This document shows, in pieces, positions 48,062 through 62,955 of a stretch of DNA of 64,000 nt. Origin of the DNA: an uncultured Helicobacteraceae bacterium (GTDB taxonomy: Bacteria > Campylobacterota > Campylobacteria > Campylobacterales > Helicobacteraceae). A program made the position numbers and the translations under genes. A model generated the notes under the pieces. The model was not told the DNA's origin. It worked only from the letters and a program-made list of their open reading frames with translations, and ran no database searches. The stretch spans positions 1 through 64,000 of the forward strand of contig CAMWQM010000007.1 of the NCBI GenBank assembly GCA_947176375.1, read 5' to 3'. Positions within the stretch are counted from its first letter, which is position 1. Each line of letters begins with the position of its first letter.

Positions 48062-48120
48062 TAGCAAGTTGTTTATTTTAAGCATATATTCTAAAAGATT
48101 TAAATTTTTAAGGAGCTAAT

Positions 48121-50655
48121 ATGGAATTCAAAGACAAATATTTAGAGCAAGTAAATACAAGATCAAAAGAAAACATCCCTCCACTGCCATTAAACACAGA
48201 TGATACAAAAAGTGTAATAGAATTATTAAAAAGTAACAAAGAAGTAGAGTTTGCAAAAGATTTGCTAATAAATCGAATCTCACCAGGTGTTGATGATAGT
48301 ACTAAAATAAAAGCCCAATTTTTAGGAGATATAGTAAAAGGCAAGATAAAGGTAGAATCTATTTGCAAAAAAGAAGCTATCAAGATTCTAGGAACAATGG
48401 TTGGCGGATATAATATAGAACCATTAATTTATGCTCTAAATGATAATGAAATAGCCAAAGATTCTGCAGATATCTTAAAACATTTGATTTTCGTATATGA
48501 TAATTTCGATATTATCGCAGAGCTTAGCAAAAGCAATTCCTATGCAAAAGAAGTTATAGAATCTTGGGCAAATGCAGAATGGTTTTTAGCAAAAAAACCG
48601 CTAGAAGAAAAAATCGAACTAGTAGCACTAAAGATTGATGGAGAGACAAATACTGATGATTTAAGCCCAGCTAGTGATGCTTTTACAAGAAGTGATATTC
48701 CACTTCACGCACAAGCTATGCTAAAAAATAGAATACAAAATACAAAAGAAAGACTAGATTCCATTAAATCAAAAGGAAAAGTAGCTTATGTAGGTGATGT
48801 AGTAGGAACAGGAAGCTCTAGGAAATCTGCTTGTAATTCCATAATGTGGCATTTTGGTAATGAGATTCCATTTATCCCAAACAAAAAGAGTGGTGGAATC
48901 GTAATTGGCGGAGTGATTGCACCTATATTTTTTAATACTTGTCAAGACAGTGGTTGTTTGCCAATAGTCGCTGATGTTAGCAATATAAAAGAGGGTGATA
49001 GAATCACAATCTATCCATATAAAGGTGTGATTGAAAAAGATGGCAAAGAAATATCAAAATTTAATCTAACTCCTCCTACAATCTTTGATGAAATGCGTGC
49101 AGGCAGCAGAATAAATCTAATTATCGGTAGAAAATTAACGAATAAAGCAAGAGCTTTTCTAAATTTAGAAGAAGAAAATCTATTTGCAAAACCAACTCCA
49201 CCAAAACAATCAAACAGAGGTTATACTCTAGCTCAAAAAATAATAGGCAAAGCTTGTGGCAAAGAGGGAGTTAGAGCAGGTGAATATTGCGAGCCAATAA
49301 CCACAACCGTTGGCTCTCAAGACACCACAGGAGCAATGACAAGAGATGAAATAAAAGAAATGGCGGCATTAAAATTCTGCACAGATTTTGTTATGCAAAG
49401 CTTTTGCCACACAGCAGCATATCCAAAATCAGCTGATATTTCACTTCAAGCGACACTGCCAAATTTCATCACAAGTAGAGGTGGCGTAGCCCTTCGTCCA
49501 AAAGATGGTGTAATTCACTCATGGCTAAATCGATTTGTTTTACCAGATACACTAGGCACAGGTGGAGATTCGCACACTAGATTCCCCATTGGAATCTCAT
49601 TTCCAGCGGGAAGCGGGCTAGTAGCATTTGCAGCGGTAAATGGAATTATGCCACTTGATGTGCCAAAATCCATTTTAGTTAGATTCAAAGGTGAAATGAA
49701 TGAGGGTATAACTTTAAGAGATTTGGTAAATGCAATCCCATACTATGCGATTAAAAAAGGTTTGCTTAGCGTTGAGAAAAAGAATAAGAAAAATATTTTC
49801 AACGGCAAAATTTTAGAAATAGAGGGTTTGCCAAATCTAAAAGTAGAACAAGCTTTTGAATTAAGCGATGCAAGTGCGGAGCGAAGTGCAGCTGCTTGTA
49901 GCGTTAGACTAAATAAAGAGCCTATCATTGAATACCTAAAATCAAATATAGCATTGATTGAGGCTATGATTAAAAATGGTTATGAAAATAAAGAGACTTT
50001 AGCGCAGAGAGCAAAAAAAATGCAAGAGTGGATAGACAATCCAATCCTTTTAGAACCAGATTCTGATGCAGAATATGAAGAGATAATTGAGATTGATTTA
50101 AAAGATATTACAGAGCCTATTTTAGCCTGTCCAAATGACCCTGATGATGTAGCTACATTAAGTGAAGTTCTAGCTTCAAATGAAAGAGCACATAAAATTG
50201 ATGAAGTATTTTTAGGAAGTTGTATGACTAACATAGGCTTATTTAGGGCATTTGGTGAAGTGATAAAAGGTGAAGGACAACTAAATACTAGAATCTGGAT
50301 TGCTCCACCTACAAAAATGGACGAAAAACAGCTCATACAAGAGGGATACTATTCTATATTTGGTGCTAGTGGTGCTAGAATGGAAGTACCTGGTTGTAGT
50401 TTATGTATGGGAAATCAAGCTAGGGTTAGAGACAATGCAGTGGTATTCTCCACAAGCACAAGGAATTTTGATAATAGAATGGGTAAAGGGGCTAAAGTAT
50501 ATCTAGGTAGTGCTGAATTAGCGGCTGTTTGTGCGATACTAGGTAAGATTCCAACCAAAGATGAATATATTAAAATAATAAGCAATAAAATTATTGATAA
50601 AAATAAAATATATTCTTATTTGAATTTTAACCTAGTTAATAATTTTTATTTGTAG
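48121..50655 (+). CDS. acnB: Bifunctional aconitate hydratase 2 / 2-methylisocitrate dehydratase
   Basis: AcnB interconverts citrate and isocitrate in the TCA cycle. It has the AcnB order: an N-terminal HEAT-like domain (1-155), the swivel domain with [15 protein letters not shown] and [16 protein letters not shown], then the cluster-binding core with [34 protein letters not shown] and the [11 protein letters not shown] cysteines near residue 760. Length 844 is normal. AAGGAG precedes the ATG. Free AcnB can bind mRNA as an iron sensor in related bacteria; whether so here is unknown. Confidence 0.97.
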
Positions 50656-52931: not shown

Positions 52932-54224
52932 CTAGCTTAAACTTTTCATATCTATCACAAAGCGAAAGTCAGCTTTTCCCTCTGCGACTATTTTATACAC
53001 AGAATCTAGCTTTTGGATAGAGATAATCTCAACCTTTGGATAGATATTATTTTCCACACTAAAATCTAGCATTTCTTGAGTTTCTTTGATACCACCTATC
53101 AAAGATGGATAGATTTTTTTATTTTGAAACTGCCATAAAAACTCTTGCGAATCTAGTTTTGGAGCATCCTTTGGAGCAGGAAGCCCTACGATTGCCATTT
53201 CCCCACCAAACTTAAGCATTTTATGATAGTCATTTATGTCATATTTGTATGGAATCGTGCTAATGATAAAATCAAATATATTGCTAAATTCCTTAAATCT
53301 AGTGCTTTTGACATTGACAAATTCCTTTGCTCCTAGTGCCAGCACTGAATCCTTTTTATCAATAATATCAAAGCAAGTAACCTCTGCCCCCAAATGTACC
53401 ATATATTGCAATGCCATATGCCCTAGTCCGCCAACCCCAGCTACCGCAACCTTTTGTCCGCTTTTTACTTTACTAAACATTATGGGTGAATAAGTCGTAA
53501 TCCCTGCACACAAAAGTGGGGCTACTTTCTCTATCTGTGCATTTTTACTTACTTTTATCGCAAATTTTTCACTTAAAACAATATTGTTTGAGTAGCCTCC
53601 ATAGGTGATTGCATTGTCATGAAAAACATCTTTACTATTATAAGTAAAGACGGTTTTTGCATTTGTGCAATATTGTTCTTTACTTTGTTTGCAAGCCTCA
53701 CATTCTCCACAAGAATTCACCATACAGCCTACCCCTGCGTAATCACCAACTTTAAATTTAGAAACTTTGGAGCCAACTGCAATGACAATTCCTACAATCT
53801 CGTGTCCTGGGACCATAGGATAGATAGCCATGTGGTGGTCGCCAGAGACTGTGTGCAAATCACTATGGCAGATTCCAGCATATAGTATCTCTATTAAAAT
53901 ATCATTTTCTCCCATCGGATGACGTTTAAAACTAAAGTACTTAAATTTCCATTCCTTACTATTGGCTGCATAGTCAAAGCTAGGAATCTCCTTGCCACTT
54001 AAGGCTTCATTTAGCCCATTTGATTTTATATTGCTAGAAGATTTAGAATCTGCTTTTAGGGAGCTAAAGATTCCACCTCCTCCTATTATTGATACACTTG
54101 CCATTCCCATACTTGCAAGTGCTACACTACCAGCTTTTGCTGAAGTTTTAAGAAACTCTCTTCTAGCACTCTGCTCTTCTCCAAAGCACTTTTTTTGACT
54201 GCTTAATTCTATTTTTTCTTTCAT
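52932..54224 (-). CDS. Zinc-dependent alcohol dehydrogenase with Tat signal
   Basis: The enzyme part is a cinnamyl-alcohol-dehydrogenase type medium-chain dehydrogenase: the catalytic zinc motifs GICHSDLH and PMVPGHEIVG, structural zinc cysteines in CGECEACKQSKEQYC, and the Rossmann loop GVGGLGHMAL. Ahead of it is a 70-residue extension with a twin-arginine signal (SARREFLKTSAKAGSVALAS, Arg 21-22), so the protein may be exported folded. H. pylori has a cytoplasmic-looking relative (HP1104). The ATG at 54224, after GGTGG, is preferred over a GTG at 54236. Its promoter (54259-54289) matches that of the efflux operon. Confidence 0.9.
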   Translation of the reverse strand: MKEKIELSSQKKCFGEEQSARREFLKTSAKAGSVALASMGMASVSIIGGGGIFSSLKADSKSSSNIKSNGLNEALSGKEIPSFDYAANSKEWKFKYFSFKRHPMGENDILIEILYAGICHSDLHTVSGDHHMAIYPMVPGHEIVGIVIAVGSKVSKFKVGDYAGVGCMVNSCGECEACKQSKEQYCTNAKTVFTYNSKDVFHDNAITYGGYSNNIVLSEKFAIKVSKNAQIEKVAPLLCAGITTYSPIMFSKVKSGQKVAVAGVGGLGHMALQYMVHLGAEVTCFDIIDKKDSVLALGAKEFVNVKSTRFKEFSNIFDFIISTIPYKYDINDYHKMLKFGGEMAIVGLPAPKDAPKLDSQEFLWQFQNKKIYPSLIGGIKETQEMLDFSVENNIYPKVEIISIQKLDSVYKIVAEGKADFRFVIDMKSLS

Positions 54225-54258
54225 TTTATTTTCCACCTTTCTTGAAAATTAAAATAAT

Positions 54259-54289
54259 ATTATAAAATCTAACACTTAGTGTTTGTCAA
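54259..54289 (-). promoter_or_regulatory. MerR-type promoter of the Tat alcohol dehydrogenase gene
   Basis: On the minus strand TTGACA (54289-54284) and TATAAT (54264-54259) are separated by 19 bases. The spacer contains the perfect dyad AACACT-A-AGTGTT. A dyad inside an over-long 19-base spacer is the hallmark of promoters twisted open by MerR-family activators. Confidence 0.75.
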
Positions 54290-54392
54290 GCTAATTTACA
54301 TAAAATAATCCTAAATTTTTATAATTCTCATAAACAAAATACATAGAATATTAATCACAAATTCTGCCTCTAAAACTAACTGCTAAAATACT

Positions 54393-55925
54393 TTAAAAGC
54401 GCTTTTTCTTTCCTTGTATCCACTCACTAAGTTTTGCAAAATATATAAAAAATAGTGGAATAAAAAATATAGCTAAAAATGTCGCTGCTAGCATTCCACC
54501 AATCACTCCTGTGCCAATAGAATGCCTGCTTAAGGCCCCTGCTCCGCTACTAATTGCAAGAGGAAAAACTCCTAAACTAAAAGCAAGTGAAGTCATAACA
54601 ATAGGGCGAAATCTTAACTTTGCAGCTTGCAGTGCAGAAGCAACTATACTCTTTTTCTCAATTTCTCTAGAGTGCATTGCAAATTCTATTATTAAAATTG
54701 CATTTTTAGCAGACAGGGCGATTAGCACGAGCAGTCCCACTTGAAAGAATATATCATTTTCTAGCCCTCTTAAAAACACTGCTAAAATCGCACCAAACAC
54801 CCCAAAAGGCACAGCAGTTAGCACAGCTAGAGGTATTAGCCATTTTTCATATTGTGCCACTAAAATTAAAAACACAAAAATTAACCCAAAGACAAATGCA
54901 ATACCACCTGTGCCAGAATTTACCCTCTCTTGATAGCTTGCACCAGAATAGCTAATATCATATCCCTCTGGCAAAACTTCTACTGCCACTTTTTCAATAA
55001 TATTCATTACATCACCACTAGAATAGCTAAAATTTGGATAGGCTATCACATTTGCTGCAGGAAAGAGATTAAAACGATTCACAATATCCGCTCCAATCAA
55101 TCTCCTAAAAGTTAGAAGCTCACTTAATGGGATTAAATTGCCACTGCTTGACTTTACAAATACCTTACTTAAGTCCTCTGGTTTTGCTCTAAAATCACCA
55201 CTAGCTTGAGCAATGACCCTAAAAGTCCTATTATAAAGCTCAAAATTATTCACATAATAACTTCCAAAAGTAACTTGCATAGTCCTAAAAATATCACTAA
55301 TATTTACTCCTAGGCTAGAAGCTTTCTCTCTATTTAAAGTTACTTCATATTGTGGCGTATCAACTGCTAGGCTTGTAAAAATATTACTAATTTCCTCTCT
55401 TTTTTGCGCCTCTTGCAAAAGTAAATCAGTGTATTTTTTTAAATCCTCTAAACTTCCTCCTGCCTTACTTTGAACATACAAATTTATACCACTTGAATCT
55501 AGCCCAATAATCGTAGGGGCTTGCACTAGGAGGAATCTTGCATTAGGATAACTTTCTAATTCCTTACTCAAAGTTGCAATTACCTCTCTATCGCTCTGCC
55601 CTTTTTTCTCTCGCTCATTCCACGGGATAAGCCTATAAAACGTAACCCCGCCATTACTTTTAAAATTCCCAGATAAAAAACTATATCCTGAAATTGTCGT
55701 TAGCTCACTAATTAAAGGATTCTCCATTCCTTTAGCAATCAAATCCTTTTGCACAGCTGTCGTGCGAGAGAGCGAAGCACCCTCTGGCAAAATTGTGTGA
55801 ATAATTACATTTCCCATATCCTCATTTGGAACGAGTGAGGTTGGAATCTGCTTTAACAAACCATAGCAAGAAAAAATGATTGCAAAAAATATCAAAATAA
55901 ACAAGATTCCCCCTCCTAATAACAT
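54393..55925 (-). CDS. RND efflux pump, C-terminal part (frameshifted)
   Basis: This frame encodes the second half of an AcrB/CmeB-type pump: IPTSLVPNEDMGNVIIHTILP opens the large second periplasmic loop, and the last membrane bundle has LVLIALSAKNAILIIEFA with the proton-relay lysine and SLGVFPLAISSGAGALSRHS. It overlaps the N-terminal part in another frame. Continuity of family sequence (VANVIRRG joined to ILFILIFFAIIFSCYG) shows that the two were one gene of about 1040 residues. The first ATG (55925) lies in a membrane helix, so on its own this piece would not be a complete transporter. Confidence 0.88.
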   Translation of the reverse strand: MLLGGGILFILIFFAIIFSCYGLLKQIPTSLVPNEDMGNVIIHTILPEGASLSRTTAVQKDLIAKGMENPLISELTTISGYSFLSGNFKSNGGVTFYRLIPWNEREKKGQSDREVIATLSKELESYPNARFLLVQAPTIIGLDSSGINLYVQSKAGGSLEDLKKYTDLLLQEAQKREEISNIFTSLAVDTPQYEVTLNREKASSLGVNISDIFRTMQVTFGSYYVNNFELYNRTFRVIAQASGDFRAKPEDLSKVFVKSSSGNLIPLSELLTFRRLIGADIVNRFNLFPAANVIAYPNFSYSSGDVMNIIEKVAVEVLPEGYDISYSGASYQERVNSGTGGIAFVFGLIFVFLILVAQYEKWLIPLAVLTAVPFGVFGAILAVFLRGLENDIFFQVGLLVLIALSAKNAILIIEFAMHSREIEKKSIVASALQAAKLRFRPIVMTSLAFSLGVFPLAISSGAGALSRHSIGTGVIGGMLAATFLAIFFIPLFFIYFAKLSEWIQGKKKRF

Positions 55926-57510
55926 TTGCCACTACGCGTGAAAATCTATAAGTTAGCCTCTCAAAGAAATAATTAAACTTTGAAATAATATATATTGGCT
56001 TATTTTCATTTCTCTTTAAAAACATAGCACAAAGGCTTGGCGTAAGACTTAAGGCAACAAGTCCAGAGATTACCACTGAAATTACAATCGTAATGGCAAA
56101 CTGCTTGTAAATCTCCCCACTAAAACCTCCAATAAACGAGACAGGGATAAATACAGCTGAAAGCACCAAAACGATTGCGATAATCGGGGAGGTGATTTCT
56201 CTCATCGATTTAATCGTAGCTTCTTTAGGGTTTAAATGCTCTGAATGCATTATCCTTTCTACATTTTCAATCACAATGATTGCATCATCAACCACGATTC
56301 CAATAGTTAGAATTAGCCCAAATAATGTGAGTAAATTAATACTAAAGCCAAAGATATAAAGCCCTACAAATGTCCCTATGATTGAAACAGGAATAGCAAC
56401 ACAAGGGATAATAGTAGCCCTAAAATTTCCCAAAAATAGATAAATCACAGCGACAACCAAAATTATAGCCTCAATAAAAGTTTTTAAAACCTCTTTCATA
56501 GAAGCTTCTACAAATTCTGTGGGACGAAATGGATTTGAATATTGCATACCATCTGGGAATTTGCTAGATAATTCTTGCATAGCAGATTCCACATTCTTTG
56601 CTGCTTCTAGCATATTTGCCCCGGGCTGCAAAGTGATTCTAATTGGCACAGATGGAATCTCATTATAAAAATTATCTTGCAAATATTCTTGTGCGCCTAG
56701 CTCAACTTTTGCAATATCTTTTAGTCTTAAAGTCGAGCCATCTGCATTTGAAGTGATAATAATATTTTCAAACTCTTCTTTGCTTGTAAATAAGCCCTTT
56801 GTAGTGATATTGTAAGTAAAAAGACTATTTGAAATTGGCTCTGCACCAAACTTCCCAGGAGCAAATTGAGAACTTTGCTCTTCAACTTTAGCAATAACTT
56901 CAAGCGGAGTTAGATTATAGATTGAAAGTTTATCGGGTAAGAGCCAAAGCCTCATAGCATAAGTTTGCAAACTCCATAGCTCCACGCCTATGCCCTTAAT
57001 CCTCTTTAATTCATCTACAATATTCAAAAGTGCATAATTTTCGATATAAATTTTATCGTGATTTGGATTATTTGAATAGATATGATACAACCCGACAACC
57101 GATGTTGTGCCTTTTTGCACATTAATTCCTAGTCTTTGCACTTCACTTGGAAGTTGGGATAGGACAGACTGCACTCTGTTATTGACATTTACAACTGCCA
57201 TATCAGGATTTGCTTCATTACTAAAAAATACACTAATAGTAAAATTCGCTCCACTTGATGGAGATGAGCTTTGAATATAAATCATATCCTCGACTCCATT
57301 AATACTATTTTCTATCACGCTAACCACACTTGTAGAGATAGTCTCTGCACTTGCTCCTGGGTAGCTTCCGCTTACTATCACTTGTGTGGGTGTAACTTTT
57401 GGATACTGCTCTATTGGGAGATTAAATATACACAAAAGCCCTGCAATCACAATAATGATAGAAATCACCGCAGAAAATGCTGGACGATTTATAAAAAACT
57501 TTGAAAACAT
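55822..57510 (-). CDS. RND efflux pump, N-terminal part (frameshifted)
   Basis: This is the first half of an AcrB/CmeB-type inner-membrane pump: the start FINRPAFSAVISIIIVIAGL, the first periplasmic loop (PTQVIVSGSYPGASAETIST), and helix 4 with GIVVDDAIIVIENVERIM, whose paired aspartates carry protons. About residue 528 the frame leaves the family at a G5 run (plus strand C5 at 55909-55913), giving a wrong C-terminal tail. Removing one G restores the frame. AAGGA precedes the ATG, 14 bases after the adaptor tail. Confidence 0.9.
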   Translation of the reverse strand: MFSKFFINRPAFSAVISIIIVIAGLLCIFNLPIEQYPKVTPTQVIVSGSYPGASAETISTSVVSVIENSINGVEDMIYIQSSSPSSGANFTISVFFSNEANPDMAVVNVNNRVQSVLSQLPSEVQRLGINVQKGTTSVVGLYHIYSNNPNHDKIYIENYALLNIVDELKRIKGIGVELWSLQTYAMRLWLLPDKLSIYNLTPLEVIAKVEEQSSQFAPGKFGAEPISNSLFTYNITTKGLFTSKEEFENIIITSNADGSTLRLKDIAKVELGAQEYLQDNFYNEIPSVPIRITLQPGANMLEAAKNVESAMQELSSKFPDGMQYSNPFRPTEFVEASMKEVLKTFIEAIILVVAVIYLFLGNFRATIIPCVAIPVSIIGTFVGLYIFGFSINLLTLFGLILTIGIVVDDAIIVIENVERIMHSEHLNPKEATIKSMREITSPIIAIVLVLSAVFIPVSFIGGFSGEIYKQFAITIVISVVISGLVALSLTPSLCAMFLKRNENKPIYIISKFNYFFERLTYRFSRVVANVIRRGNLVYFDIFCNHFFLLWFVKADSNLTRSK

Positions 57511-57524
57511 AATTTTTCCTTATT

Positions 57525-57843
57525 TTAGGATTTTATAATTGCATTTGAATAGTAAGGTGTATCTTGCATATTTAAAACACTAAATTTAATATCTCTAAAA
57601 GCTGCTATAATAGAATCTACAAAATTTGCTGCAATGCTAGAATCTGCTATGGCATTAGAATCTGTGGAATCCAAATATTTAGATTCTATTTTGACTAAAT
57701 CTTTATTTAAAACTAAATTATATTTGGAATCTAAATTTCTATCTAACCCACTAGTATCTAATCTTAAAGCGTCATTTTTAGAATCTATGGATTCCATTTT
57801 TTCTACTTTCTCCCTAACTTTAACTTTATCATTATTTTTAATC
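57525..57843 (-). pseudogene. Out-of-frame C-terminal tail of the efflux adaptor
   Basis: Read one frame off, the adaptor continues beyond its stop: NKIKNNDKVKVREKVEKM matches the usual end of AcrA-type proteins, followed by a 90-residue Ser/Asp/Leu-rich tail ending at a TAA at 57525. The join requires loss of one A from the A4 run (plus strand TTTT at 57847-57850). The extended frame ends 14 bases before the pump start, which is the expected operon spacing. The tail contains repeated LDS and DSN units encoded by GATTC/GAATC words. Confidence 0.65.
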
Positions 57844-58884
57844 TTATTTTAAGCTATCAATTATTATAATGTTACCTGCTTTTAACCCGCTATTTATTAA
57901 AATCTCATTATTTTCTATACTTTTTCCTAACTCTACTTTTCTCACACTAACACTGCCTTCTTTATTACTATCTATATTCTCTAACACAAAGACAAAACTA
58001 GAATTAGAATCTTGCCCTATCGCACTCTGTGAGATAGAGATAGCATTTTTTACCCAAAAGCCAGATAGATTTAGATATACAAATTGAATTGGAAGTAGCT
58101 TAAAATCATCATTATCTAGCACTGCCCTTGCCCTCAAAGTCATTGTATTTTCATCTAATATGCTATCTATAAAATCTAACTTACCTTTTATAGATTTATC
58201 ATCAGATAGGGTTATGTTGATATTATTAGTATCATTAAAATAACTAAAATCACTAAAAGGTATTGAAAACTCTGCATAAATAGGGCTTAATTGCGTAATT
58301 GTAGTAAGGACACTATTGACATTTTGTCCCACTAAATTCATAGTATCATAATTTCTAATGCCAACTTTGCCGCTAATGCTAGCCACTATATCTGTGTAAC
58401 TCAAATCTAGCAGAGCATTAGCAAGGTTTGCCCTAGCACTTTTTAATTGGGCTTTAGCATTTTCGTAGTTATATTTACTCTCATCATAAATATCAATTGT
58501 AAAAATCCCTTGCTTATAAAGCTTACTAACCCGTTCAAAATCCCTTTTTTGTTTAGTAAAATTTGCCTCTGCATTGCTTAAATCCGCCTTACTCCTATCC
58601 ACTATATTTTGATAATTTGTAGGGTCTATTTTAAAAAGCTTCTCACCCTCCTTTACAATGCTATCCTCCTTAAAAAACTGCTCTATCAAAAGCCCCTCTA
58701 CCCTTGCATAAATATCAACCTTATGGATACTTTTTAATCTAGCTGGATAGCTAAACTCTAAATTTATATCCTTTGGCACAATCTTTAGTGTTCTAACCTC
58801 TAATATATCATCTTTCTTTTCTATCTCTTTATTTTCACAGCCAAACATTAAAACCATAATAATTGCAATAAATATTTTATTCAC
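57844..58884 (-). CDS. RND efflux periplasmic adaptor (membrane fusion lipoprotein)
   Basis: This AcrA/CmeA-type adaptor links an RND pump to an outer-membrane channel. It has a lipoprotein signal (VLMFGC, Cys16), the lipoyl halves VDIYARVEGLLIEQFFKEDS and YTDIVASISGKVGIRN around a coiled-coil hairpin, and the beta-barrel. The GTG at 58884 is chosen because an upstream ATG at 58953 lies within the promoter; GGAG is 12 bases before the GTG. The frame ends early through an apparent one-base shift. No outer-membrane channel gene is present. Confidence 0.88.
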   Translation of the reverse strand: MNKIFIAIIMVLMFGCENKEIEKKDDILEVRTLKIVPKDINLEFSYPARLKSIHKVDIYARVEGLLIEQFFKEDSIVKEGEKLFKIDPTNYQNIVDRSKADLSNAEANFTKQKRDFERVSKLYKQGIFTIDIYDESKYNYENAKAQLKSARANLANALLDLSYTDIVASISGKVGIRNYDTMNLVGQNVNSVLTTITQLSPIYAEFSIPFSDFSYFNDTNNINITLSDDKSIKGKLDFIDSILDENTMTLRARAVLDNDDFKLLPIQFVYLNLSGFWVKNAISISQSAIGQDSNSSFVFVLENIDSNKEGSVSVRKVELGKSIENNEILINSGLKAGNIIIIDSLK

Positions 58885-58922
58885 TACTAATTTTTCTCCA
58901 TCAAAATTTTTAAAAAACTGGA

Positions 58923-58953
58923 ATTTTAAAGCATAACACCAAGTGTCTGTCAA
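58923..58953 (-). promoter_or_regulatory. MerR-type promoter of the RND efflux operon
   Basis: On the minus strand TTGACA (58953-58948) and TAAAAT (58928-58923) flank a 19-base spacer holding ACAC-TTG-GTGT. Layout and dyad match the promoter of the Tat alcohol dehydrogenase at 54259-54289, pointing to one MerR-family regulator, which is not encoded in the window. Confidence 0.72.
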
Positions 58954-59052: not shown

Positions 59053-59109
59053 TCGGTTGGAATACCCTCTTTTTGGATTGCTTCCATAGTGGATAGCTGC
59101 TGTTTTTGC
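59053..59109. repeat. Second copy of a 57-bp piece of pgi
   Basis: These 57 bases repeat 59402-59458, inside pgi, in the same orientation with a single mismatch. On the minus strand they encode the same SMEAIQKEG segment. The copy sits 120 bases past the pgi stop in sequence with no open gene, so it is a remnant of a partial tandem duplication. Confidence 0.9.
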
Positions 59110-59229: not shown

Positions 59230-60507
59230 TTACTTATTTTTCTCTTTAAATTTTGTAACCAATATTTTCTTACCAAGCTCCACACCGGGCTGATCATAAG
59301 CATTAATATCTAACACTTTTCCGGCAGCTGAAGTCAAGAGCTCATAATACATTATTAAACTTCCCACACTCTCCTCATTTAACTCTTTAATTTCTATATA
59401 GTCGGTTGGAACACCCTCTTTTTGGATTGCTTCCATAGTGGATAGCTGCTGTTTTTGTAACAGAGAGGCGAAGCTAGAGCCATTTACAAAATTACTAGAT
59501 TCTAAAAACTTTAAGCTAATATTTGGAATCTTTGGCTTTTCATAACTTTTTTGATGAAGACTTAAAAAAGTAACACTCTTATCCATAACTCCTTGCACAA
59601 TTAGCTGTAAAAATGAGTGCTGGTCAATACTCCCAATTAATGCAATAGGCGTTAGTGCGGTCTTACGCCCAAAGCTATTTAACTTACCTAAACTCTCGCC
59701 CCAAAGCTGCACATACCAAGAATTAAAATCCTTAAAAACACTAGAATATGAAAATAAAATATTAATATGAAATTTATCCCTATTATTCCCTAGAAACAGG
59801 GCTTTTTTTAAGATATGTTCTTCTTTTCTATCAAAAAAATTATTAGATATTTTTCTAGCACCCAGAAGAATCTTATCAACTCTATATCCCAAAATCATAA
59901 GGGGTAAAACCCCTATTGTACTTAAAACCGAAAATCTACCACCAATATTTTTATCAATAGTTAGAGTTTTAATATTTTTAAAATTACCAAAAGATTCTAT
60001 TGGAGATCCCTTATCCGTGATAAAACATAAATGTTTTTTATTAGCTTCATTTTTAAAAATTTTATATTTCTTTAATACATATTTCATCAATGAAAGTGTC
60101 TCTATTGTGCCACCAGACTTTGAAATAACAATAAAAAGAGAATCTGATAATTTAATTTTTTTGAGCGATTTTTCAATCTTTATAGGGTCAGTGTGCTCTA
60201 AAAATTTAAGATTAATATTTTTTCTATATGATAAATGCGATAACATCGTATCAATTGCCTTGAGCCCAAGTGAGCTTCCACCTATGCCTATTATTATTAG
60301 ATTTGAAATATTATTTAGAAATTTTACATTATCTTTAATATAAGAGCTAGATTCTAAAATTGACTTTTTATCATAAGGAAGCTTGTAATAACCGCTAATA
60401 TTGCTATTTCTCTCATCACAAATTGCCCTAAATAGTGCATTTATTGAATCCTTTTTTATATCATAGATTTGTGATGATTTATTAAAATATTCTCTAAATT
60501 TAATCAT
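59230..60507 (-). CDS. pgi: Glucose-6-phosphate isomerase
   Basis: Pgi interconverts glucose-6-phosphate and fructose-6-phosphate. The sugar-phosphate loops IIIGIGGSSLGLKAIDTM near residue 72 and VISKSGGTIETLSLM near 128, and the catalytic Glu region (VQLWGESLGK) are present. At 425 residues it belongs to the shorter bacterial form. It overlaps the gap gene stop by four bases and so is co-transcribed with it. A 57-bp piece is duplicated downstream. Confidence 0.95.
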   Translation of the reverse strand: MIKFREYFNKSSQIYDIKKDSINALFRAICDERNSNISGYYKLPYDKKSILESSSYIKDNVKFLNNISNLIIIGIGGSSLGLKAIDTMLSHLSYRKNINLKFLEHTDPIKIEKSLKKIKLSDSLFIVISKSGGTIETLSLMKYVLKKYKIFKNEANKKHLCFITDKGSPIESFGNFKNIKTLTIDKNIGGRFSVLSTIGVLPLMILGYRVDKILLGARKISNNFFDRKEEHILKKALFLGNNRDKFHINILFSYSSVFKDFNSWYVQLWGESLGKLNSFGRKTALTPIALIGSIDQHSFLQLIVQGVMDKSVTFLSLHQKSYEKPKIPNISLKFLESSNFVNGSSFASLLQKQQLSTMEAIQKEGVPTDYIEIKELNEESVGSLIMYYELLTSAAGKVLDINAYDQPGVELGKKILVTKFKEKNK

Positions 60508-61484
60508 TTTGACACATATAAACTTAAATCTATTAGCCTTGTGCTGTATCCTACTTCATTATCATACCAAGCCAAAATCTTTGCACTAAATTCATCAATT
60601 ACTATCGTTTTATCAGGGATAAAAATTGAGCTGTATTTTGAACCGATAAAATCGCTTGAAACTCGCTTCTCTAAATCATTATAAATAATGCCTTTCATAT
60701 CATTTTGCTCTGCTTTTAAAAAAGCTTCATTTATAGATTCCACGCTCACTTTGTTTCTCAATCTAGCACTTAAATCAACAAGGCTAACATCTGGGGTTGG
60801 AACACGAATAGCCACGCCATTTAATTTGCCATTTAATTCAGGAAAAATCTTGCCAATAGCCTTTGCCGCACCTGTGCTAGTTGGAATCATATTTAGCGCT
60901 GCAGCCCTCGCACGACGAATATCTTTATGTTTTACATCAAGAACATTTTGGTCATTTGTATAGCTGTGAATCGTGCTCATTAAAGCAGATTCCAAACCAA
61001 AAGTGCTATGCAAAACTTTTACAAGCGGAGCAAGGCAGTTTGTGGTGCAAGAAGCATTTGAGACTATCTCTTCACCTTTATAAGAGGTATGATTTACACC
61101 ATAAACATACATATCGACATTATCAGCAGGAGCGGAGATTACTACTTTTTTAATATTATCCCTCAAATGTGCTTTTGCTTTATCAAATGAGTTAAATTTC
61201 CCGGTGCATTCTATCACACAAGTAGCACCATAAGCAGAAAAATCAAGATTATTTGGGTTTCTATCGCTCAAAACTTTGACATTTTTGCTATTGCCTATTG
61301 AGATAGTTTGATTATCAACTTTTTGCACTTCACTACTTCCATGCACAGAATCATATCTTAAAAGATGAACTAAAGTATCAATATCTGCTGTGCTATTTAT
61401 CGCAACAAGCTCTGCATCACTTCTTTGTCCTATAAGTCTTGCTGTGCAAAGCCCAATCCGTCCTGTTCCATTGATTGCTAACAT
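60504..61484 (-). CDS. gap: Glyceraldehyde-3-phosphate dehydrogenase (type I)
   Basis: GAPDH oxidises glyceraldehyde-3-phosphate in glycolysis or runs in reverse for gluconeogenesis. The NAD loop NGTGRIG is at residues 5-11, the catalytic cysteine in SNASCTTNCLAP near 147, the histidine in STIHSYTNDQ, and TSTGAAKAIG binds phosphate. The NGTGRIGLC start is the form found in H. pylori. Length 326 is normal. It forms an operon with pgi. A clearly different paralogue lies upstream at 61816-62955. Confidence 0.95.
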   Translation of the reverse strand: MLAINGTGRIGLCTARLIGQRSDAELVAINSTADIDTLVHLLRYDSVHGSSEVQKVDNQTISIGNSKNVKVLSDRNPNNLDFSAYGATCVIECTGKFNSFDKAKAHLRDNIKKVVISAPADNVDMYVYGVNHTSYKGEEIVSNASCTTNCLAPLVKVLHSTFGLESALMSTIHSYTNDQNVLDVKHKDIRRARAAALNMIPTSTGAAKAIGKIFPELNGKLNGVAIRVPTPDVSLVDLSARLRNKVSVESINEAFLKAEQNDMKGIIYNDLEKRVSSDFIGSKYSSIFIPDKTIVIDEFSAKILAWYDNEVGYSTRLIDLSLYVSK

Positions 61485-61815: not shown

Positions 61816-62955
61816 TTAAGCTTTATAAATTAGTTTTGCCATATCTAGAAGTCTGTTTGCATAACCACTTTCATTATCAAACCAAAGGCTAATTCTGCAT
61901 AATTTGCCATTAATTTTAATCAAATCTGTCGGGATTATTGCACTTCTGCTATCTTTGATAAAATCACTTGAAACAAGCATAGATAAATCAAATCCTATAA
62001 TTCTAGGATTAAAATTTAACTCCAAAATCTCATCTTTACTAATTTTATTCTCAAGCATTAAATCAATATTGCTAAATGAAACAATAGAAGTTGGAATCCT
62101 AATAGAATCTCCATAAAATCTCCCTACACTATCGCCAAAAAGTCGCTCGATCATAAAGCCTATTGAACTTTTAGTTGGCAAAATATTTTGCGTAGCATTT
62201 CTGCTTAATCGTAAATCACTCAAATGTGCGTTATCTAATAAAACTTGATCGCTATTAAATGGGTGAATTGTAGTGATATTTCCACCTAGAATCTGGTGCT
62301 TTTGCTTTATGGCAAAAATTATAGGAGCAATTGCATTCGAGCTACAAGAGGCATTTGAGATAATTTTCTCTCCGCTATATTTATCCTCATTCACTCCAAA
62401 GACAAAAATAGGTATATTATCCTTTGGTGGGGCACCCAAAATCACTTTTTTAGCACCATTTTTAATATATGGCATTAAATTTTGTGTATCTAAAAATTTT
62501 CCACTACATTCAAGCACTAAATCCACTTCACCAAAGCTTGTCTCATTAGGATTATTGGCATTGCTAACTATAATCTCATCTATCTCATCACTAAAATTAT
62601 CATTGCTAATAAAAAGCCTATTGTCCCTAAGCTCTACTTTATGGTTAAAAGTCCCAAAAATCGTATCATTTTTTAATAGATAAGAAAGATTGCTAAAATT
62701 AGAAACATCATTTATATGCGTGATTTTTATAATTTTATTTGTAGATTCTTGTTTAGATTCTATAGTTTTAGACTTGATAGATTCAGTGCTATTTATACTA
62801 GATTTAGCAGATTCTATTTTTTTGAAAATATCATTTTTATTGCTAGTTTCCTCAATCTTATTTTGATTTACTGATTTATTATTTTCATATGCTAATCGAA
62901 AAAACGCCCTTCCTATGCGTCCAAAGCCATTTATAGCTACTTTTATTATCTGCAT
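61816..62955 (-). CDS. Divergent GAPDH paralogue with a low-complexity insert
   Basis: The NAD loop INGFGRIGRAFFRLA (8-22) and the catalytic cysteine (SNASCSSNAIAP) and histidine (TTIHPFNSDQ) regions identify a GAPDH-fold enzyme, and SLWFDNESGYANRLLD is the conserved end. It departs from the norm in the phosphate site (LPTKSSIGFMIE in place of TSTGAAKA) and has an extra 45 residues (about 28-73) of Lys/Ser/Glu-rich sequence between the first two strands of the NAD domain. Length is 379 instead of about 330. It may act as an anabolic or erythrose-4-phosphate-type enzyme. It abuts the next leftward gene. Confidence 0.88.
   Translation of the reverse strand: MQIIKVAINGFGRIGRAFFRLAYENNKSVNQNKIEETSNKNDIFKKIESAKSSINSTESIKSKTIESKQESTNKIIKITHINDVSNFSNLSYLLKNDTIFGTFNHKVELRDNRLFISNDNFSDEIDEIIVSNANNPNETSFGEVDLVLECSGKFLDTQNLMPYIKNGAKKVILGAPPKDNIPIFVFGVNEDKYSGEKIISNASCSSNAIAPIIFAIKQKHQILGGNITTIHPFNSDQVLLDNAHLSDLRLSRNATQNILPTKSSIGFMIERLFGDSVGRFYGDSIRIPTSIVSFSNIDLMLENKISKDEILELNFNPRIIGFDLSMLVSSDFIKDSRSAIIPTDLIKINGKLCRISLWFDNESGYANRLLDMAKLIYKA

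Follow-up and report, generated by a model that had tools for sequence, protein, structure and literature searches.

Two MerR-type promoters of a Helicobacteraceae genome very probably belong to a nine-site regulon of an NmlR/AdhR-like protein

Two promoters in a 64,000-nucleotide stretch of DNA (the window) from an uncultured Helicobacteraceae bacterium, one preceding the gene of a Tat-exported dehydrogenase and the other an RND efflux operon, very probably belong to a regulon of nine sites that is governed by a single NmlR/AdhR-like MerR protein, encoded on another contig (C9) and switched by a signal. At the level of sequence, this reading is grounded in the sites themselves, their geometry and placement, the site in the regulator's own promoter, the co-occurrence of sites and regulator among related genomes and the match between residue 17 of the regulator and the spelling of the operator. 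A preliminary description of the window had already linked both promoters to one regulator. The shared site and a MerR gene preceded by the same site agree with this proposal, but the regulon comprises nine sites and not two.

Architecture of the two window promoters

Both promoters are located on the minus strand. The dehydrogenase promoter (54259..54289, TTGACAAACACTAAGTGTTAGATTTTATAAT) consists of the –35 box TTGACA, a 19-bp spacer containing ACACTAAGTGT, and the –10 box TATAAT, while the efflux promoter (58923..58953, TTGACAGACACTTGGTGTTATGCTTTAAAAT) combines the same –35 box with a 19-bp spacer containing ACACTTGGTGT and the –10 box TAAAAT. All elements initially described, including the ACAC-N3-GTGT dyad, are therefore present in both promoters. 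Read on the plus strand, the two dyads are ACACTTAGTGT and ACACCAAGTGT. The dyad had been described as centred in the spacer; it does lie inside the spacer, but off-centre, with its midpoint 7 bp past TTGACA in both cases. This is the position known from MerR-family sites, in which the dyad centre follows the –35 box by 7 bp when the site has 21 bp and by 8 bp when it has 22 bp (PMC5045206). Promoters of MerR-type activators combine this 7- or 8-bp offset with a spacer of 19–20 bp, and both features were found in the two window sites, in agreement with the published rule (PMC5045206) and with the MerR-type architecture originally assigned to them.

Throughout the window, only two matches to ACACNNNGTGT were detected, and these are the two promoter dyads. 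In shuffled versions of the window the mean number of matches was 0.05, and none of 100 shuffles contained two. These shuffles, together with the reversed-pattern controls of the scans described below, rule out that the dyad occurs by chance.

Genes behind the window promoters

The first promoter precedes a gene (52932..54224, minus strand) encoding an Ahr/AdhP-like zinc alcohol dehydrogenase with the Pfam domains ADH_N and ADH_zinc_N and the Tat motif SARREFLKTSA. Its nearest NCBIfam model is the Ahr aldehyde reductase, with a score below the cut-off. Translation starts at an ATG near position 54224, 34 nt after the –10 box, and the listed GTG start at 54236 falls inside the ribosome-binding stretch of this gene. 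The second promoter precedes the gene of an RND periplasmic adaptor (MFP; 57844..58884, minus strand), a probable lipoprotein (MNKIFIAIIMVLMFGC...) that scores 225.7 bits with the NCBIfam model RND_mfp (TIGR01730, cut-off 94.9). Here, translation starts at a GTG at 58884, 38 nt after the –10 box, and the protein begins with a lipoprotein-type signal. The real starts of both genes are internal to the open reading frames as listed.

The adaptor gene is followed by a gene for an RND permease of the AcrB family (54393..57510, minus strand), which is split by a frameshift into two overlapping open reading frames, 55822-57510 and 54393-55925. One of them covers positions 1-533 of ACR_tran and the other positions 528-1020. 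The frameshift is located at about 55,822-55,925, near a short G run, and could represent either an assembly error or true decay. A 90-amino-acid open reading frame with Asp/Ser-rich stretches and without a family match (57525-57797) is situated between the MFP and RND genes.

Nine sites in the genome

The 1.8-Mb genome was scanned with a 31-base pattern, allowing up to three mismatches and using the reversed pattern as control. Nine sites were identified, compared with none for the control. All nine show a 19-bp spacer and are located 30–60 nt upstream of a start codon. In addition to the Tat dehydrogenase and the MFP-RND operon behind the window promoters, these sites precede genes for a Tat-exported carboxymuconolactone decarboxylase (CMD) and a cupin (contig C2), an NmlR-like MerR protein (C9), an Ahr-like dehydrogenase (C1), a Tat-exported aldo/keto reductase (C11) and a maltose-acetyltransferase-like protein, with an aldo/keto reductase encoded ~1.3 kb further on (C26). 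The remaining sites are found before a short chimeric open reading frame (the second site on C2, C2:49951) and at a degenerate locus where the opposite strand retains the remnant of an aldo/keto reductase gene (C3:149639). Damaged targets in this genome include the split RND permease, the C3 remnant and the chimeric frame after the second C2 site.

The regulator encoded on contig C9

A search of the whole genome with the Pfam model MerR_1 returned matches at three places only, all of them outside the window, confirming that the window contains no MerR-family gene. The first match is HspR (C4), which adjoins a cbpA-like gene. The second is the remnant of a MerR gene, interrupted by stop codons, that lies downstream of the Tat-CMD/cupin operon (L007:4112-4309; C2, about 48090-48323); this adjoining decayed gene suggests that a local regulator formerly belonged to the operon. 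The third match is an intact NmlR/AdhR-like MerR protein of 141 amino acids (C9:57-482, minus strand). Its promoter carries TTGACAAACACTTAGTGTAATGCTTTATAAT (site 537-567, 54 nt before the ATG), so that a MerR-family gene whose own promoter carries this site, which the preliminary description had proposed to look for, does exist in this genome.

The C9 protein scores 39 bits with MerR_1 (PF13411, cut-off 21.6) and shows the organization of the MerR family, an N-terminal winged helix-turn-helix followed by a dimerisation helix. Its family profile aligns with PDB 5D90 along positions 1-119, and the top structure matches of the family alignment are those of NmlR from H. influenzae (5D90, 5D8C and 5E01, E about 1e-28). 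The best NCBIfam model is likewise NmlR (NF041849), with 82.5 bits compared with a cut-off of 175. All 30 relatives also match this model, counted as matches irrespective of bit score. Cys54, which is absolutely conserved in the NmlR clade according to a 2016 review (PMC4776306), is replaced by F54 in the C9 protein, whose cysteines are Cys72, Cys109 and Cys135; among 59 family members, 22 have C54. Because of the score below the model cut-off and the missing sensor Cys54, strict membership in NmlR was rejected and the C9 protein is not filed as NmlR, which means that the NmlR signal cannot be read across to it and that its signal has to be deduced from its targets. By analogy, we nevertheless expect the C9 protein to work like NmlR/AdhR, regulators that respond to formaldehyde or other carbonyl compounds.

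AdhR of B. subtilis, which by profile belongs to the same MerR clade as the C9 protein, mediates an aldehyde response, and the core of its regulon consists of adhA and the CMD gene yraC (PMC4776306). An alcohol dehydrogenase and a CMD are under its control, and this pair of targets was also found behind the sites of the genome studied here and of its relatives. The AdhR regulon contains three genes (adhA, yraC and yraA), in contrast to about nine promoters here, where many of the targets are Tat-exported, and its sensor residue, Cys52 in B. subtilis, is absent from the C9 protein. NmlR, known from Neisseria and from H. influenzae (HI_0186), is the best match of the C9 protein among solved structures and controls adhC-estD, but differs from it in the model score and in Cys54, for which the C9 protein has Phe. 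In Gram-negative bacteria, NmlR occurs in Neisseria and a few Pasteurellaceae only, according to the same review (PMC4776306). The metal regulators CueR and MerR share the 19–20 bp spacer, the 7-bp dyad offset and a specificity residue/base pair with the system described here (PMC5045206), whereas their profiles give weak scores for the C9 protein and their targets are metal pumps instead of oxidoreductases.

Sites and regulator in related genomes

In a scan of 119 genomes for the exact 18-base core, sites were detected in 26 genomes, 25 of which belong to the same family. A C9-type MerR protein is encoded in 44 genomes, namely in 25 of the 26 with sites compared with 19 of the 93 without (Fisher 9e-13 overall and 7e-7 within the family). 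A protein-based genome scan with the C9 MerR protein revealed 66 loci, nearly all from named or uncultured Helicobacter and Campylobacter, including H. cinaedi, H. bilis, H. canis, H. pullorum, H. heilmannii and C. troglodytis. Within 1.04 Mb surrounding 60 of these Helicobacter/Campylobacter MerR genes, we counted 64 sites versus 0 controls.

The first genes behind 190 distinct sites, covering the three operator spellings introduced below, most often encode AKR (41), ADH (29), MerR (26), CMD (25) or cupin (16) proteins, and more rarely acetyltransferases, flavodoxin-like quinone reductases and a few transporters; since the stretches were picked around sites or regulators, these counts describe the regulon and not a random sample of the genomes. 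The list of first genes is much alike for all three spellings. Tat motifs were found in 33 of 81 first genes behind sites, compared with 38 of 803 other open reading frames from the same stretches. In some relatives (L097, L037 and L088), MFS/TLC nucleotide-carrier-like transporters are encoded behind ACAC-type sites.

Taken as a group, the aldo/keto reductases, dehydrogenases, CMDs and flavodoxin/quinone reductases fit a role in the detoxification of reactive small molecules. The initial suggestion that a toxic small molecule is exported and oxidized is thereby supported for the enzymes behind the sites, but not to the same extent for export, as the link to efflux is kept in few relatives. 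Depending on the species, orthologues of the window dehydrogenase are preceded by an ACACT, ATACT or AGAGT site; the conservation of the dyad upstream of this gene, on which the preliminary description had made its proposal depend, thus holds in several relatives. For the adaptor gene it holds in part only, since L173 and L174 alone carry a site upstream of the MFP orthologue, in the AGAG-type spelling, and most orthologues have none. On this basis, the RND link is treated as weak, and of all parts of the regulon, control of the RND operon is conserved least.

These observations bear on the alternative that only the promoters of the dehydrogenase and the other enzymes matter, the RND promoter being passive or dying in front of a broken permease gene. 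The split permease, the lack of a site before most MFP orthologues and the decay of other targets in this genome speak in its favour. On the other hand, the efflux promoter is intact, with a match to the full consensus, the two relatives named above do carry AGAG-type sites upstream of their MFP orthologues, and the split could be an assembly error. Overall, we regard a dying RND promoter as rather unlikely, but as an explanation to be taken seriously.

Three operator spellings and residue 17

With a general pattern that fixes only the positions common to all spellings, 50 of 119 genomes were found to contain MerR-type promoters, and the reversed control gave few matches. The half-sites fall into three spellings, ACACT, AGAGT and ATACT, all of which retain the 19-bp spacer and the 7-bp offset. 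The spelling AGAGT resembles what we take to be the NmlR/AdhR box, in contrast to the ACACT dyad found here. The base 4 bp from the dyad centre tracks residue 17 of the recognition helix: arginine goes with C, histidine with G and threonine with T. The sites in the regulators' own promoters follow this rule with zero exceptions (R-C 8, H-G 10 and T-T 2), and so do 25 of the 26 genomes with a single regulator, the one breaking it being G054. Residue 17 of the C9 protein is arginine (R17), and both window promoters have the spelling ACACT. An identical residue/base pair shows the strongest correlation in metal-responsive MerR subfamilies (PMC5045206). On the regulator tree, residue 17 changes about four times, yielding one to three independent pairs, so that the statistical weight of the correlation rests on few independent events; the stronger claim, that repeated independent change proves residue 17 to be the specificity determinant, was rejected for this number of pairs.

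Repressors commonly bind palindromes located between the –35 and –10 boxes, and TetR proteins often repress RND operons. A repressor from outside the MerR family (TetR-, MarR- or HxlR-like) that chances to bind in the spacer might accordingly recognize the dyad. We consider this very improbable, as the 19-bp spacer and the fixed 7-bp offset are found in all three spellings, dyad spelling varies with the recognition helix of the MerR protein, and MerR genes of this family have the site in their own promoters. Control by the heat-shock repressor HspR, with heat-shock genes as targets, is hardly credible and was ruled out by site type and co-occurrence: although HspR is present and belongs to the MerR family, its site HAIR (CTTGAGT-N7-ACTCAAG) is unlike the sites described here, chaperone genes are missing from the nine targets, no site match within three mismatches was found at the hspR gene, and it is the NmlR-like protein with which the sites co-occur.

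Proposed mechanism and implications

In the mechanism that we propose for the regulon of the C9 protein, a dimer of this protein would sit on the ACACT-N-AGTGT dyad between the –35 and –10 boxes, ACACTNAGTGT DNA being its predicted binding target. With 19 bp, the separation of the two boxes would be too long for σ70 polymerase. A signal, most likely an electrophile or a reactive carbonyl, would bind or modify the protein, which would then twist the DNA and thereby bring the boxes into register. As a consequence, the merR gene, the Tat-exported and cytosolic dehydrogenases, the aldo/keto reductases, the CMD and cupin and the RND pump operon would be switched on. We infer DNA twisting and activation from the behaviour of the MerR family, and the type of signal from the functions of the targets and the precedent of AdhR/NmlR.

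In a wider sense, Helicobacter and Campylobacter may possess NmlR-like paralogues that control a large envelope-directed carbonyl/electrophile regulon, written in three operator spellings, with shared target genes that changed spelling between species and with a new signal or mode of sensing that does not involve Cys54. We offer this reading tentatively, as one with a good chance of being right but not yet the favoured outcome. It would pair R17 with ACACT, H17 with AGAGT and T17 with ATACT, Cys54 being unused here and in many other genomes. In agreement with the initial remark that no such regulon was known from Helicobacter, we found no account from Helicobacter or Campylobacter in the open-access literature. 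To our knowledge, transcription in Helicobacter species other than H. pylori has barely been mapped. The present analysis offers a testable regulon, with a regulator, an operator, a target list and a predicted specificity residue. The enrichment of Tat motifs raises the question why enzymes of nicotinamide-cofactor families are exported, and the three spellings on the same target families provide a natural example of joint change in a regulator and its sites.

Other features of the window

Between pgi and the RND promoter, a 56-base segment (59053-59108) duplicates part of the adjacent pgi gene (about 59402-59457) with 98% identity. Further along, two consecutive GAPDH-like genes are located at 60504-61484 and 61816-62955, the second of which contains an insert of ~45 residues rich in Ser and Lys.
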